The notes beneath the pieces were generated by a model. That model did no database searches. It was not told where the DNA came from and worked only from the letters and a program-made list of their open reading frames with translations. The translations under genes were made by a program, and so were the position numbers. Of a stretch of 64,000 nucleotides of DNA, positions 56,083 through 62,412 are shown in pieces (within the stretch, counting starts at the first letter, position 1; each line of letters starts with the position of its first letter). The stretch is from the NCBI GenBank assembly GCA_021202895.1, contig JAJQCE010000024.1:57910-121909 (forward strand), written 5' to 3'. The DNA comes from Ruminococcus sp. (GTDB taxonomy: Bacteria > Bacillota > Clostridia > Oscillospirales > Ruminococcaceae).

Positions 56083-56111
56083 TTGACATTTTCCCGATAA
56101 TATTGTATTAT
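56083..56111 (+). promoter_or_regulatory. Promoter of the SGNH hydrolase gene
   Basis: TTGACA (56083-56088), 17-base spacer, TATTAT (56106-56111), overlapped by a TATAAT three bases downstream. Confidence 0.75.
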
Positions 56112-56144: not shown

Positions 56145-57146
56145 ATGAAAAGGGTCGGTCGCATAAATTTAGTTTTTCGTTTAGCAGTCTTTTTTATATA
56201 TTTACTCTCCGTTAATTTTTGCGCATATGCGCAAAGCAGTGATTTTATCGTTGAAACTAACTATCCGCCGCACATAGTCTTTTTGGGAGATTCGATTGCG
56301 GCAGGCTATGGGCTCGATGGATATTCAAGCGATAACAACACTCTTTGTGCATCATACGCAAATATACTTTCTGCAATATTTGATTCCGCGCTTGACGATG
56401 AAGCGGGATTTTCTTCGGAAAATGCTGCAAAAAACGGAATGACGTCCTCTGATCTGCTTGAAAAGCTTTCACAAGGAGAGTACGATGAAATGCTTACAGA
56501 TGCCGATGCCATTGTACTTTCCATTGGAGGAAACGACCTGCTAAGACCCTTTCGGGAAATTCTCGCTGAGGATTTGAGTCTGAGCGAAAGGCTTGATAGG
56601 TTTACCTCACTAAGCGATGAGCTTGACAAAAGGCTTGATGAATTTGAAGAGCTTTTGCCTCAGATTGTCAATTCGATTTTTTCATGCTCGGATGCAAAGC
56701 TTTTCGTGCAGACGCTATACAATCCCTTTGATGGATTTTCCATCACTTCTCTTGACGAGCTTGCGGATGAAAAAATCAGCAGACTAAACGAAATTATTTT
56801 TGAATGCAGCGACAACAACAATTTTTTAGTTGCCGACATTGCTCAGAGCTTTGAAGGAAGAGCACAGGAGCTTACCAACATTTCCAACTATGACATTCAC
56901 CCAAATGCGCAAGGACACGAGGAAATTGCAAGAGTGCTTGAGCCTCTAATAGAAGGCGAGGTTTACACCTACTACGATGCTCAAGCTGCAATGCAGTATG
57001 CTCTTGAAGAGGAAAATGCCGCACAGCTTGAAAAGCAAAATAAAAAGACTGCTGTTATTATCGCAGCCATATCTGCTTTTTTAATTGCTTTAATTTGTAC
57101 GATTGTATTTTTTATCCGAAGAAAATTAGGGGCAAAACGCTCCTGA
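56145..57146 (+). CDS. Membrane-anchored extracellular SGNH/GDSL hydrolase
   Basis: A 333-residue protein with an N-terminal signal peptide (FRLAVFFIYLLSVNFCAYA) and a C-terminal membrane segment followed by RRKLGAKRS. The four SGNH blocks are visible: IVFLGDSIAAGYGL (Ser), NGMTSSDLL (Gly region), VLSIGGNDLL (Asn) and YDIHPNAQGHEEIARVL (Asp-His). So it is a complete esterase/acylhydrolase displayed outside the cell, acting perhaps on acylated polysaccharide, peptidoglycan or lipid. The C-terminal helix keeps it on the membrane. No terminator separates it from the NYN gene. Confidence 0.92.
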   Translation: MKRVGRINLVFRLAVFFIYLLSVNFCAYAQSSDFIVETNYPPHIVFLGDSIAAGYGLDGYSSDNNTLCASYANILSAIFDSALDDEAGFSSENAAKNGMTSSDLLEKLSQGEYDEMLTDADAIVLSIGGNDLLRPFREILAEDLSLSERLDRFTSLSDELDKRLDEFEELLPQIVNSIFSCSDAKLFVQTLYNPFDGFSITSLDELADEKISRLNEIIFECSDNNNFLVADIAQSFEGRAQELTNISNYDIHPNAQGHEEIARVLEPLIEGEVYTYYDAQAAMQYALEEENAAQLEKQNKKTAVIIAAISAFLIALICTIVFFIRRKLGAKRS

Positions 57147-57208
57147 AGAACTAATTTTTTCAGACTGTGATTTTTCGTCAAAAATATTTTTTGAAAGGAA
57201 AAATTTGT

Positions 57209-59323
57209 ATGAAATCATTTCTTATTGATTTTGAAAATGTAAAGTCCAAAGGACTTACAGGAATTGAAAGCCTTAACGAGGAAGACCATGTTATAATTTT
57301 CTACAGTGAAAATTCTGACACAATAAGCTTTGAAATGCACTACATGGTAATGCAGGCTAAGGCAAAGATTGACTACATGAAGGTAAGAGTTGGAGGAAAA
57401 AACGCTCTTGATTTTCAGCTTTGCTCGCTCATGGGATACCTTGTAGCCAAGGGAAACAACACTCACATTTTTGTAATAAGCAACGACAAGGGCTTTGACA
57501 AGCTCCATGACTTTTGGAAAAACACATTTCCAGACATTACATACTGCTCGGTTTACAGATGCACGAACATTGAATCCGCTATGAACTATGCAAACAGAAC
57601 GAATCCTGATGAGGACATAAGCGCATACATTCATGAAAATATTTATGACGATGAATATGAGGCTTCTGCAAACTCCTCAAGGATTTTTGAATTTAACTTT
57701 AACGGTAGCGACAATTTTGTTGTCAAAAAAAGCTTTTCAGATGCTAACATACATTCACACACGCCCAAAAAGCAAAGAGATTTTCGCGATTCAACTGATT
57801 CATTCCAAGGAAAAAAATACTTTGTTTCAAATACCGAGGATAAATTTGTCACATCAGCGGCAGTTGTAACAGATGAACACGACAACGATAATTACGTTCT
57901 AAAAAAAGCCTCTCCCTATGAGGAAAAGCTGCTCAAGGCTTTTACTCCTGATGGCTTTTCGGAAATTGACGTTCTATGCTTAGCGTTCAAGGGCGCAAGG
58001 AATCCATTTGAGCTAAAGAAAATTCTAAGCGAGGATTTTGGAATAATACTTGAAAAGGGCATATTTGAAACAATTGAAAAAAATTTTGATTTTATAAAAA
58101 AGCAGCTTGATATTTTAAACTCCTATTTAGATGAAAGCGAAAGCAATATTGAATCAAAGCTTGACCGTGCGATTGAGATGCAGCTTAAGCTTGACAAAAT
58201 TAAACCTATAGATATAGGTTTAACGAACAAAGCTGATAAAAAAGCCGAAAAAAAACAGCCTGATAAAAAAGCAAAACAGGATGATAAAAGAGCAAACACA
58301 GACAAAGAATACATGGCTTTTAGAAAAAGGATTTCAGATATTCTAAAAAGCAAGGCTACTCCAGCAGAGATAAAGACAGTTTTCGGCTCTATGGAAAAAT
58401 CCGACAACGACCTCGACCTTTGCTTAGATCTTATAGACAAGCTTGGCTGGGCAAGAGGAAGCGAAATTCACACTATCATAAAGCCTGAATTTATGACTTA
58501 TATTGGCGAATCAAATGCTGAGGGAAAACCTAAAAAGGTTGACAATGCTATGAAAAAGCGTCTTCATTCAACGCTTGACAAAAAGATTACGCCTGACGAA
58601 TTTTCTGGAACTGTATCTATGATAAACTATTCGGTAAATGAAAACGACCTTATAGATAATCTTACCACACGATTTGGTCCTGAGCGTGCAGAGGTGATTT
58701 TTAATCTTGTGCGTTACGACTTCAATGCTTTTGTAAGGGGAGAATTAAATCAGGAGGACAACAGCGATTCATTCAGAAAGGTTGACGTTGCTGCAAAAAA
58801 GCGTCTGCATACTATTCTCGATAAAAAAATCGGACAAGACGAGTTTTCGGGAGTTATCGTTCAAATGAACAGCTCGCTCACTACCGAACAGCTTCACCAA
58901 AACCTTGTCCGCCGCTTTGGTCAATCGCTTGCAAGTCAGATTTACCGTCTTGTAAAGGATGAATTTATCAAGCTTTATTCAGATGACGCCGACAAAGGCA
59001 AAGCATCAGACGAAAAGCAAATTAAAGATGAGCTTGCAGATATTCCTGCTGATGAAAATGTCTTTCTCAAATCAAACAAAAGTCCTGCTTCTATAGAGGG
59101 AGAAAATTTGATGAAAGCACTGCTCAAGGATTTGGAATACACAGATTATGAATTTGAGCTTATAAGGTTCGATCTTCTCAACAGCAAAACTCCAAAGGAA
59201 TTTTATCTTGCCATGGTTAAAAAATTCAAGAAAAGCAGAGGTCTTAAATTTTATAATGCGCTAAAGAATGAATATAAAAATCTCAACAGTCTCTTTTCCG
59301 CTGAAATTAAGGAGCCGCAATGA
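57209..59323 (+). CDS. NYN-domain (PIN-like nuclease) protein with repeated helical modules
   Basis: A 704-residue protein from ATG 57209 (MKSFLIDFENVKSKG), with GAAAGGA upstream; the track starts 14 codons earlier. Residues ~1-130 are a NYN/PIN-like domain: FLIDFENVKSKGLTGI, VGGKNALDFQLCSLMGYLVAKGNNTHIFVISNDKGFDKL, with the Asp residues at positions 6-7, ~66 and ~91 that bind metal in these RNases. After ~90 low-complexity residues come four or five related helical modules of ~60-70 residues. Two are clearly tandem: KKRLHSTLDKKITPDEFSGTV... and KKRLHTILDKKIGQDEFSGVI.... An EK-rich coiled linker (~320-400) separates the halves. Its stop overlaps the phosphodiesterase start (ATGA). Confidence 0.85.
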   Translation: MKSFLIDFENVKSKGLTGIESLNEEDHVIIFYSENSDTISFEMHYMVMQAKAKIDYMKVRVGGKNALDFQLCSLMGYLVAKGNNTHIFVISNDKGFDKLHDFWKNTFPDITYCSVYRCTNIESAMNYANRTNPDEDISAYIHENIYDDEYEASANSSRIFEFNFNGSDNFVVKKSFSDANIHSHTPKKQRDFRDSTDSFQGKKYFVSNTEDKFVTSAAVVTDEHDNDNYVLKKASPYEEKLLKAFTPDGFSEIDVLCLAFKGARNPFELKKILSEDFGIILEKGIFETIEKNFDFIKKQLDILNSYLDESESNIESKLDRAIEMQLKLDKIKPIDIGLTNKADKKAEKKQPDKKAKQDDKRANTDKEYMAFRKRISDILKSKATPAEIKTVFGSMEKSDNDLDLCLDLIDKLGWARGSEIHTIIKPEFMTYIGESNAEGKPKKVDNAMKKRLHSTLDKKITPDEFSGTVSMINYSVNENDLIDNLTTRFGPERAEVIFNLVRYDFNAFVRGELNQEDNSDSFRKVDVAAKKRLHTILDKKIGQDEFSGVIVQMNSSLTTEQLHQNLVRRFGQSLASQIYRLVKDEFIKLYSDDADKGKASDEKQIKDELADIPADENVFLKSNKSPASIEGENLMKALLKDLEYTDYEFELIRFDLLNSKTPKEFYLAMVKKFKKSRGLKFYNALKNEYKNLNSLFSAEIKEPQ

Positions 59324-59850
59324 AATATCTTATCGCTTCAGACATACACGGCTCATCACTTTGGTGTGAAAAGCTGATAAACGCTTTTTCAGAGCTTAGT
59401 GCCGACAGGCTTATACTTCTTGGCGATTTGCTTTATCACGGTCCGAGAAACGACCTGCCAGATGACTATTCTCCGAAAAATGTTATAACAATGCTCAACT
59501 CTTTAAGTGATAAAATTATCGCCGTAAGAGGAAACTGTGATACAGAGGTTGATCAGATGGTGCTTGATTTTCCTATTCTATCCGACAGCGCATGGGTCTG
59601 CGATTTCGGGCAGAGAATATTCTGCTCGCACGGTCACATCTTCTCACCTGAAAAGCTCCCGCCGCTTAGCGACGGCGACATATTTCTTTCAGGCCACACT
59701 CACATTCCGACTGACAGAATTATTTTGCAGGGGCAAAAGCAGATTCGCTGCATAAATCCCGGCTCGGTTTCAATTCCGAAGGAAGCCTCAAAGCATCGCT
59801 GTCTGATATGGGAAAACGGCGTATTTACAGAGATTTTACTTGACCTATAA
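59320..59850 (+). CDS. yfcE: YfcE-type metallophosphodiesterase
   Basis: A 176-residue calcineurin-like phosphoesterase with all metal-site motifs: ASDIHGSSLW (DxH), LLGDLLYHGPRND (GDxxxxG), VRGNCDTEVD (GNCD), FCSHGHIFSP and SGHTHIPTD (GHxH). It would hydrolyse phosphodiesters; YfcE/MJ0936-type enzymes act on small substrates, and the physiological one is unknown. The four-base overlap with the NYN gene implies equal production, so the two may act on RNA ends or nucleotides in one pathway. That link is inference. Confidence 0.93.
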   Translation: MKYLIASDIHGSSLWCEKLINAFSELSADRLILLGDLLYHGPRNDLPDDYSPKNVITMLNSLSDKIIAVRGNCDTEVDQMVLDFPILSDSAWVCDFGQRIFCSHGHIFSPEKLPPLSDGDIFLSGHTHIPTDRIILQGQKQIRCINPGSVSIPKEASKHRCLIWENGVFTEILLDL

Positions 59851-59902
59851 CCCATTCGCCGATTTTAAGCAAGCTTACATCGAACTTTGCTCCGAGACAA
59901 AA

Positions 59903-59936
59903 AAATTTCCGTCTGAATTTTCAGGCGGAAATTTTT
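59903..59936. terminator. Bidirectional terminator
   Basis: AAATTTCCGTCTGA/TCAGGCGGAAATTT 14-bp stem with T-runs on both sides, shared by the yfcE gene (+) and the 58-aa membrane protein gene (-). Confidence 0.88.
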
Positions 59937-59940
59937 ATCT

Positions 59941-60117
59941 TTACAATACCTCAATAAGAAGCTTTATGAGCATAGCTGCGAAAATTACTACGCCGATACC
60001 TACGGAAATTCCGTATATCTTTCTGGAATCAGCATCTGCCTTTTCCTTAATAAGATAATACAAGCCAAAGCCGATGATCAAAGCTCCTATTAAAATTCCG
60101 ATAATACTAATGATCAT
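59941..60117 (-). CDS. Small two-helix membrane protein coupled to the P1B ATPase (58 aa, not in ORF track)
   Basis: ATG 60117 overlaps the last 11 bases of the ATPase gene. GGAGGAAT within that gene's 3' end is a strong RBS. The product MIISIIGILIGALIIGFGLYYLIKEKADADSRKIYGISVGIGVVIFAAMLIKLLIEVL has two hydrophobic helices joined by a charged loop. It is too short for the track. It is probably an accessory or stabilising subunit of the ATPase, given the coupling. No metal-binding residue is visible (Met apart), and no family is recognised. Confidence 0.8.
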   Translation of the reverse strand: MIISIIGILIGALIIGFGLYYLIKEKADADSRKIYGISVGIGVVIFAAMLIKLLIEVL

Positions 60118-61993
60118 TTTTATTCCTCCATTTCAACAGCAATGCTGAATTTATTACAACAGTCACAGAACCTGCATTATGAACAAGCGCACCTATAACA
60201 GGATTAAGCGTTCCAATAATCGCAAGAATAATCGACACAAAATTGAGCGTCATTGAAAAGGTAAGATTTAGCTTTATCGTCCTCATCATACGCTTTGAAA
60301 GTGCCAGCAAATGCGGCAGATTCTTTATCTCGTCGTCAACAATTGCAATATCCGCAGCATCGATAGCAATGTCGCTTCCTACTCCGCCCATCGCTATTCC
60401 GACATGAGATTTTTTAAGCGCAGGCGCATCGTTTATCCCATCTCCAACCATGCAGATTAGGTCATTATTTTTTTGTAAAGAAGCTATATACTCAAGCTTA
60501 TCCTCTGGCAGACAGTTTGCTTTAACCTCATTGATATCAAGGCTCTTAGCTTTTGCTTTTGCCGCATTTTCATTATCTCCTGTAAGCAAAATGGGCTTGA
60601 CTCCAAGCTCCTTAATCGAAGCAATCATTTGCCCGCTTTCCTCACGAACTGCGTCTGAAAGAGCTATAAATCCCGACAATTCATTCTCAGCTGCAATATA
60701 TGTAAGAGTACAGCCGAGGTCGATATACTTTTGAGCGACAGCTTCAACTGCTTTTGTGTCAACCGAATATTCGTCAAGCATTTTTTTGTTGCCTGCAATG
60801 ATTCGCCCGCCGTCAATCAAAGCACTTACGCCTCTACCAGGAATCATCTCAAACCCTTCGGGCTGTGAAATCTGAGAGCCGTATTTTTCTTTGAAGCTTT
60901 TGACAATCGCCTTTCCCAGAGGATGCTCGGAATTTAATTCACAGCTTGCCGCAAGAGAGAAAAGCTCTTTATCAGACAAGCTTTTATTTGCGCTGAAAAC
61001 CTCTTCAACCTTTAATACTCCATAGGTGAGCGTTCCCGTTTTGTCAAAGGCTATCTTTTTAACAGCCGCAAGCCTTTCAAGCGCATCGCCCTCCTTAACG
61101 AGAAATCCGTAGCTTGTCGCATTTCCAATAGCAGCCATTATAGCCGTCGGAGTAGCAAGCACCAGCGCACAGGGGCAGAAAACTACAAGAATTGTCACAG
61201 ACCTTATAATTTCACCACTGAAAATCCAAGTCAGAGCCGCAGCCGTCAGCGCAATAACAACAATCCAGGTCGCCCATCTATCTGCAATGCCTACAATTTT
61301 AGCTTTACCTGCGTCCGCAGACTGTACAAGCCGAATCATTCTCTGAATTGAACTGTCTTCACCGACTCTTGTCGCACGCAATTCAAATGCGCCGAATTGA
61401 TTAACAGTGCCGCTTGAAACCTCATCGCCGATACCCTTATCCACAGGAAGCGACTCGCCCGTCATTACCGCCTGATTTACAGATGTCTGACCTGAAATAA
61501 TAACTCCATCTACAGGAACAGTTTCGCCTGGAAGAACTCTTATTAACGCACCAACCTCAACCTCCTCAGCTGGGATTACCGATTCTGCTCCGTCAACAAT
61601 AACTCGCGCTGTGCGAGGCGTCAGGGAAACAAGCTTTTCAATGCCCTCTCTTGACTTTGACGCAGTTAAATCCTCAAGCAATCCGCCAAGCTGCATAATA
61701 AACGCAACCTCACCCGCCGCAAAGTCCTCGCCGATACACACCGATGCAATCAGTGCCATGGAAACAAGCACATCAGCCTTAATATCAAACCGCAAAATAA
61801 GCCCTGCAATTGCCTTTAAAATTATCGGCAAGCCGCAAAGAACCGTCGAAATCCAAGCTGCGTCAAACGGCAAAGCGTCAAACCCAGCCAAGCTAAAAAC
61901 AAGCGAAAGAGCAGAAATTGCAAGCAAGGTGATGTCTTTTTTTGTACCGCCTATCTCAAGCAGGTCTTCCATTTTTTCTAACAATGCTTTCAT
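60107..61993 (-). CDS. P1B-type heavy metal-transporting ATPase
   Basis: 628 residues from ATG 61993 (AGGAGG 7-8 bases upstream; the track uses the TTG codon before it). Motifs: TGES in AVMTGESLPVD, the membrane metal site VVFCPCALVLATPTA, the phosphorylation motif AFDKTGTLT, the SEHPLGKAI nucleotide-site motif, MVGDGINDAPAL, and the C-terminal LVHNAGSVTVVINSALLLKW. No N-terminal HMA domain with CxxC is present, so it is a short form. Metal specificity is uncertain: the CPC motif suits Cu, Zn or Cd, while HNxGS is seen in other groups. A CsoR-type repressor upstream argues for copper. Confidence 0.9.
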   Translation of the reverse strand: MKALLEKMEDLLEIGGTKKDITLLAISALSLVFSLAGFDALPFDAAWISTVLCGLPIILKAIAGLILRFDIKADVLVSMALIASVCIGEDFAAGEVAFIMQLGGLLEDLTASKSREGIEKLVSLTPRTARVIVDGAESVIPAEEVEVGALIRVLPGETVPVDGVIISGQTSVNQAVMTGESLPVDKGIGDEVSSGTVNQFGAFELRATRVGEDSSIQRMIRLVQSADAGKAKIVGIADRWATWIVVIALTAAALTWIFSGEIIRSVTILVVFCPCALVLATPTAIMAAIGNATSYGFLVKEGDALERLAAVKKIAFDKTGTLTYGVLKVEEVFSANKSLSDKELFSLAASCELNSEHPLGKAIVKSFKEKYGSQISQPEGFEMIPGRGVSALIDGGRIIAGNKKMLDEYSVDTKAVEAVAQKYIDLGCTLTYIAAENELSGFIALSDAVREESGQMIASIKELGVKPILLTGDNENAAKAKAKSLDINEVKANCLPEDKLEYIASLQKNNDLICMVGDGINDAPALKKSHVGIAMGGVGSDIAIDAADIAIVDDEIKNLPHLLALSKRMMRTIKLNLTFSMTLNFVSIILAIIGTLNPVIGALVHNAGSVTVVINSALLLKWRNKNDH

Positions 61994-62018
61994 CAAACGT
62001 CCTCCTTAACTAAAATTG

Positions 62019-62069
62019 TACCTATCGGGGTATATGTATATTATACAATAGGGGGTATGGGTTTGTCAA
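62019..62069 (-). promoter_or_regulatory. ATPase promoter with two CsoR-type operator half-sites
   Basis: TTGACA (62069-62064), 18-base spacer, TATAAT (62045-62040) on the minus strand. One site (ATACCCCCTAT on the minus strand) lies in the spacer and TACCCCGATAGGTA lies just after the -10. Both have the TACCCC pattern of CsoR boxes. Confidence 0.75.
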
Positions 62070-62136
62070 TAAAGAAATAAAAAATCAGCGATTTAAACAA
62101 AAGCGAGCAATTATTTTTGTTTAAATCGCACAATTT

Positions 62137-62412
62137 TCAACTCATATTAGCAAAGCGTTCAACCGCCTTAGTAAAGTCGGCAATAGTCTTATCCGCATCA
62201 CCGTTTTCAATTCCATCTCTGACACAATGCTTGATGTGCCCCTCTAAAACCACCTTACCGCAGCCATGAAGTGCTGATTTTGCCGCATTGATCTGAGCCA
62301 GAACGTCCTCGCAAGGAACGTCCTCATCAACCATTCTGTCAATAGCCTGAACCTGTCCTATAATTTTCTTTAATCTGCGATGCAGATTTTCAGCGTCCAT
62401 ACATTGTTTCAT
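62137..62412 (-). CDS. csoR: CsoR-family metal-sensing repressor
   Basis: A 91-residue all-helical protein with AGGAGG 7 bases before ATG 62412. The metal site is Cys34, His59 and Cys63 (VPCEDVLAQIN...LEGHIKHC), with the 25- and 4-residue spacing of copper-type CsoR (36/61/65). The N-terminal HRRLKKIIGQVQAIDRMVDEDVPC is the family signature. Apo-protein binds DNA; Cu(I) binding releases it. The likely targets are the two TACCCC boxes in the ATPase promoter 70-120 bases downstream. It has its own promoter. Confidence 0.95.
   Translation of the reverse strand: MKQCMDAENLHRRLKKIIGQVQAIDRMVDEDVPCEDVLAQINAAKSALHGCGKVVLEGHIKHCVRDGIENGDADKTIADFTKAVERFANMS

Follow-up and report, generated by a model that had tools for sequence, protein, structure and literature searches.

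A PIN7 nuclease-like protein with tandem helical modules, encoded in a probable three-gene operon of Ruminococcus

The window analysed here, a stretch of 64,000 nucleotides from a Ruminococcus contig, encodes a protein of 704 amino acids (57209..59323, + strand; assigned from its ORF, a Pfam match and a module profile) in which an N-terminal domain of the PIN7 family is followed by a long linker and by four to five copies of a small helical module. The near-constant partner of the PIN7 domain is this single unannotated module, which expands along one lineage and is used by a HEPN-like protein too. The PIN7 family is already a Pfam entry; in the literature searched (open-licence papers), we found no description of the module, of its expansion and its occurrence in the HEPN-like protein, or of the operon. 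We think, with about even confidence, that the protein is a cytoplasmic metal-dependent endoribonuclease involved in housekeeping RNA turnover, whose tandem modules would tether it to RNA or to an RNA-bound partner. Establishing whether the module binds RNA or protein would reveal the target of the whole PIN7 family, and, if our reading is true, bacteria would have built a MARF1-like multivalent endoribonuclease independently.

The PIN7 domain corresponds to residues 1-130 (57209..57598, +), as delimited by the Pfam match, conservation and an AF2 model; PF18475 itself matches residues 5-105 with 102.4 bits, for a cut-off of 34. An earlier note, made from the letters of this DNA, had spoken of an NYN nuclease-like protein. 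This holds for a domain with a nuclease-type acidic site, but Pfam assigns it to PIN7, and its narrower NYN family is absent from the matches to the window protein up to E 1. The acidic site is indeed complete, as the note had it, and D7, E9, N10, N65, D68 and D93 are invariant in 86 of 86 aligned relatives drawn from several Clostridia families, so that a lack of conservation in homologues, which the note had named as a possible refutation, is not what is observed. The only replacement of S91 in these 86 sequences is T. In genome contigs, relatives were found with an alignment of the N-domain; the full-length query found none, its patterns lying mostly in variable regions.

The AF2 model of the PIN7 domain is confident (pLDDT mostly >83). 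In the PDB, its top fold match is to mouse Marf1 (NYN domain), which we count in favour of the RNase reading although the match is weak (E 0.53, probability 0.93). CARF-type Rossmann folds score almost equally well, and nothing falls below E 0.001. We count these last two points against the RNase reading, and likewise the fact that no PIN7 protein with a reported activity or tested function was found in the open-licence literature searched. Among solved structures, no credible relative emerged from sequence searches with the full protein, the PIN7 profile or the module profile. Metal-dependent RNA cleavage is nevertheless what we predict, because the acidic site is conserved and because of the family membership. 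Catalysis by the PIN7 domain appears supported by the conservation of its residues, which suits a working metal site. What the sequences show is the domain with its invariant acidic site, the modules and their almost constant fusion to PIN7, and a conserved gene order; we infer RNA as the substrate, its cutting, the tethering by modules and the housekeeping role. In three loci, an intact PIN7 gene with a single module is immediately followed downstream by a degenerate PIN7-like gene whose acidic site is partly changed (L078:9212-10117, L079:7766-8512 and L087:7524-8018, all on the - strand), and two genomes of the own genus have a second, short PIN7 gene (L018, L019).

The long linker seen previously is borne out: residues 137 to about 235-248 (57617..57913, +) are predicted to be disordered (pLDDT <50). 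The linkers of relatives are of low complexity, and AT-hook-like RGRPRK motifs are present in 12 of 81, for 0.35 expected from shuffles (L112, L121, L138, L143, L145-L147, L150, L156, L158, L160 and L170). We count this excess in favour of our reading, but such motifs would point to DNA as much as to RNA, which is a caveat on the RNA substrate.

The module, of about 65 residues, was followed with a profile built up from modules C and D, the most similar pair (41% identity). This profile finds 138 modules in 81 proteins, including four in the window protein, all on the + strand: module B (residues 365-437, 58301..58519; E 1.1e-12 over residues 377-428), module C (residues 446-511, 58544..58741; E 1.2e-12 over residues 452-505), module D (residues 527-600, 58787..59008; E 2.4e-16 over residues 533-586) and the C-terminal module E (residues 626-697, 59084..59299; E 1.5e-16 over residues 636-689). 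The AF2 model places the helices of module B at residues 357-380, 385-397, 401-412 and 414-437. Its confidence is low at module C; it is high at module E (pLDDT about 96), which occupies the place of the single module of distant relatives. The four to five helical modules announced by the earlier note are therefore firm for four of them (E 1e-12 to 1e-16), whereas the fifth, a degenerate copy that we call module A (residues 236-307, 57914..58129, +), has the expected four-helix layout in the AF2 model but is marginal by sequence. Tested with a first-module profile, it reaches 8.8 bits via one intermediate relative, while the highest score among 2000 shuffles is 8.2.

Modelled by AF2 on the 138-row alignment, the module consists of four helices and is strand-free (pLDDT 83). 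No Pfam family covers the 138 modules, the scattered matches concerning at most 5 of them, and in fold searches of the PDB and of viral models no match had an E below 2.8. Position 50 is Tyr in 135 of the 138 copies. Position 54 is Lys or Arg in 99% of them, and positions 30, 39 and 43 are basic in 70-82%; we count these conserved residues, the Tyr included, in favour of our reading. Against RNA binding we count the near-neutral charge of the window modules (net -3 to +3), where many RNA-binding domains are strongly positive, and the fact that no ligand is known for any fold or sequence relative of the module.

PIN7 proteins are present in many genomes of gut Ruminococcus, Oscillospiraceae and Lachnospiraceae. 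Most of the proteins of this Pfam family are annotated 'PIN domain-containing protein', and they have in common with the window protein the N-terminal domain, the acidic residues and the C-terminal module, which was found in 76 of the 78 complete PIN7 proteins that were examined and also occurs in PIN7 relatives from other families. To judge from these sequences, PIN7 plus a C-terminal module is a constant unit, the final module ending nearly every relative. The module is missing in L166 and L168 (both complete) and in the incomplete L170, all of which terminate in long tails that are charged and of low complexity. Among relatives the number of modules is one to three, where the window protein has four to five, and the count tracks kinship, increasing toward the window protein: among complete proteins, all nine in the own-genus set have three modules, 39 of the 41 in the next ring (Ruminococcus) have two, and 24 of the 27 from the remaining, distant relatives have one. 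All module matches but one in 61 near genomes lie in a PIN7 ORF or in its contig-split remainder. A class-wide sample gave nine matches outside the own genome, seven with the PIN7-plus-module layout; in this sample the module match of one PIN7 ORF (L235) is weak, and a match in a cation-transporter-like ORF (L240) was dismissed as due to chance.

The sole non-PIN7 carrier of the module in the 61 near genomes is a protein of 347 amino acids (L221:1476-2516, +) with an unrelated N-domain, which contains the sequence LRNTFLH (R-N-x3-H) and matches the phage family phrog_18591. Three proteins with 40-49% identity to it (L246-L248) have kept both the module and the motif (LRNTFLH or LRNQFLH, in the form LRNxFLHxG), and two others (L251 and L253), whose similarity to L221 is confined to the N-domain, have kept LRC-x-[FY]-LH. 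The motif of HEPN RNases follows the rule Rx4-6H, with a polar residue after R (PMC3710099). L221 and L246-L248 resemble this superfamily, having R-N-x3-H and then a small residue and G; Pfam HEPN gives no match for proteins of the L221 type. Since the module ends a HEPN-like protein too, it accompanies two unrelated RNase-type domains. This is the strongest hint to its role: a module common to PIN7 and putative HEPN proteins would aim RNases at something.

We propose that the N-terminal PIN7 domain would cut single-stranded RNA in a metal-dependent manner, and that the flexible tail of four to five four-helix modules would form a multivalent tether to RNA or to a partner bound to RNA, more modules giving higher avidity. 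In its own genus the protein would serve RNA turnover as a housekeeping enzyme, and it would be co-expressed from one operon with a membrane-anchored SGNH hydrolase and YfcE, a common substrate not being required. More tentatively, and here we are rather doubtful, the module may be an RNA-binding or RNA-machine-binding domain placed on unrelated PIN7 and HEPN-like ribonucleases and multiplied to tune the hold on RNA, which would make the window protein a bacterial counterpart of the MARF1 layout. MARF1, with its NYN domain and eight LOTUS domains, is alike in having one NYN/PIN domain and a row of small repeats, and the NYN domain of human MARF1 is a proven endoribonuclease (PMC6294520). The window protein differs from it in that its modules are not of the LOTUS fold (no match), in having no RRM and in the absence of any detectable sequence relation. 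A bacterial NYN/PIN-like protein, the CRISPR-associated NYN protein of Bacteroides fragilis, is reported to cut single-stranded RNA with Mn2+ (PMC11346440), which is the activity that we predict here. This protein belongs to a type III CRISPR locus, whereas no CRISPR context is seen at the window gene, and the abstract of its description mentions no tandem modules, unlike what we see in the window protein.

Both ORFs of the gene pair described by the earlier note are confirmed in position, and they do share four bases, ATGA, the stop of the PIN7 gene overlapping the start of the next one (59320..59323, +). The latter encodes a YfcE-type metallophosphodiesterase of 176 amino acids (59320..59850, +), assigned from NCBIfam matches (PRK09453, 205.7 bits for a cut-off of 117; TIGR00040, 80.5 bits) and from its complete metal-binding motifs (SDIHG, GDLLYHG, GNCD, SHGH and GHTH); E. 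coli YfcE (1su1) matches it over the full length (E 2.8e-45) but has a different genomic partner. The pair as such stands; what had been missed is a third gene upstream, encoding a membrane-anchored hydrolase of the SGNH/GDSL type (56145..57146, +; Pfam PF13472, 73 bits) with a signal-like N-terminal segment and a C-terminal transmembrane helix. It is separated from the PIN7 gene by 62 bases, on the same strand, and the PIN7 gene has its own ribosome-binding site AAAGGA (57194..57199, +), followed by the ATG start. A promoter-like site, TTGACA-17-TATTAT, precedes the trio (56083..56111, +; 11 of 12 positions in a consensus scan), a resemblance that by itself does not show function, and a strong hairpin with a T-rich tail, likely an intrinsic terminator, follows YfcE (59901..59936, +; -20.8 kcal/mol, z -6.9). 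Because of the common strand, the ATGA overlap, the promoter-like site before the first gene and the hairpin after YfcE, the most likely arrangement is a three-gene operon, SGNH-PIN7-YfcE, rather than a gene pair.

Of 13 genomes in the own genus, 12 have the PIN7 gene, and the one that lacks it is 56% complete; the SGNH gene is upstream in 12 of 12, and YfcE is downstream or on a matching split contig in 11. We count this constancy of the PIN7 gene and of SGNH before it in favour of our main reading. We surveyed the operon in the 52 nearest loci of a named collection, taking as denominators the loci with enough sequence. SGNH precedes PIN7 in 41 of 51, and YfcE follows it in 35 of 50, with a PIN7-YfcE gap of at most 13 bases in 35 of 35 and the four-base overlap in 11 of these 35. 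The pairing of PIN7 with YfcE is therefore not unique to one genome, contrary to what the earlier note had considered as a second refutation. Since the flanking genes vary among Ruminococcus loci, the SGNH-PIN7-YfcE block is kept as a unit. YfcE is unlinked from PIN7 in R. albus; in this species and its close relatives (L112, L114-L117, L120, L121 and L127), PIN7 is followed by uvrC in the same direction. YfcE was not found in four relatives that keep SGNH-PIN7, G909-G912 (L101, L111, L113 and L149), some of whose assemblies may be incomplete. At 25 more distant loci, YfcE is downstream in none, and neither SGNH nor YfcE is a partner. The R. albus case, the four relatives and the distant loci together indicate that PIN7 does not need YfcE, and the necessary two-enzyme system envisaged by the earlier note is not upheld. 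Co-occurrence of the two genes in the family, estimated by matching two genome lists, is weakly above chance (9/15 versus 27/84, p 0.047, kinship being ignored).

One could still imagine that PIN7 and YfcE, with SGNH, belong to one pathway, in which PIN7 would make RNA fragments and YfcE would hydrolyse phosphodiester or cyclic-phosphate products. The closely spaced PIN7-YfcE order, kept in most of the nearest loci between differing flanks, and the signals that bracket the trio are in favour of this idea. We find it rather unlikely, however, in view of the unlinked or absent YfcE just described, of the many genomes that have YfcE without PIN7, and of the tighter linkage of SGNH than of YfcE, the SGNH product being yet predicted to face outward. 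The main rival is another one and concerns the modules, which could be protein-docking or self-association domains bringing PIN7 to a partner complex, for instance a degradosome, polymerase or ribosome, their repetition providing multivalency. It stays the main rival because of the near-neutral charge of the window modules. It would also agree with the all-helical fold and its weak likeness to the docking domains GIPC GH2, PDZD7 HHD and Pyrin (all E >4), and with a module common to PIN7 and HEPN-like proteins, as docking domains are. We regard docking as a serious possibility, though one that we would place below even: the nearly invariant Lys/Arg at position 54 and the further conserved basic positions are less expected, and no neighbour gene is constant across families as a candidate partner.

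The defence role suggested by the earlier note supposes an anti-phage or abortive-infection effector, with PIN and HEPN RNases using one sensor or adaptor module. The patchy distribution of PIN7 beyond the genus (found in 30 of 149 genomes of the family and in 10 of 300 of the phylum), the location of some PIN7 relatives on plasmids and the phage-family match of the HEPN-like co-user could be read in this way. Nevertheless, PADLOC gave nothing significant for the PIN7 or the YfcE protein, and among 106 genes neighbouring distant relatives it matched four (E 1e-15), one of the four models being a polymerase-type family whose set includes DNA polymerase I. The named neighbours are ordinary (prfA, dnaK, trpB and rhaA, for example), PIN7 relatives were unconfirmed in viral contigs at the sensitivity used, with one match in a phage collection, and the conserved synteny in the own genus, where nearly every genome has the gene and SGNH always precedes it, is hardly that of a defence gene. 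We think that the defence role is improbable and that the suggestion should not be retained. We give even less credence to a PIN7 domain that would be non-catalytic and bind RNA or nucleotide only. It could be argued from the lack of reported PIN7 activity in the literature searched and from the degenerate paralogues found beside intact genes, but it fits poorly with site residues that are all invariant in 86 of 86 relatives. We continue to favour a catalytic PIN7 endoribonuclease that its modules would anchor to RNA or to an RNA-bound partner.

Several other genes recur around PIN7 without being retained as partners. An AraC gene (cluster c3) frequently precedes PIN7, and some relatives have a gene for RNase G, UvrC or Nth beside them; all were rejected as clade-local neighbours. 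In the window itself, a gene for a heavy-metal P-type ATPase (60107-62412, -), with a CsoR-like regulator gene close by, is of an ordinary kind.
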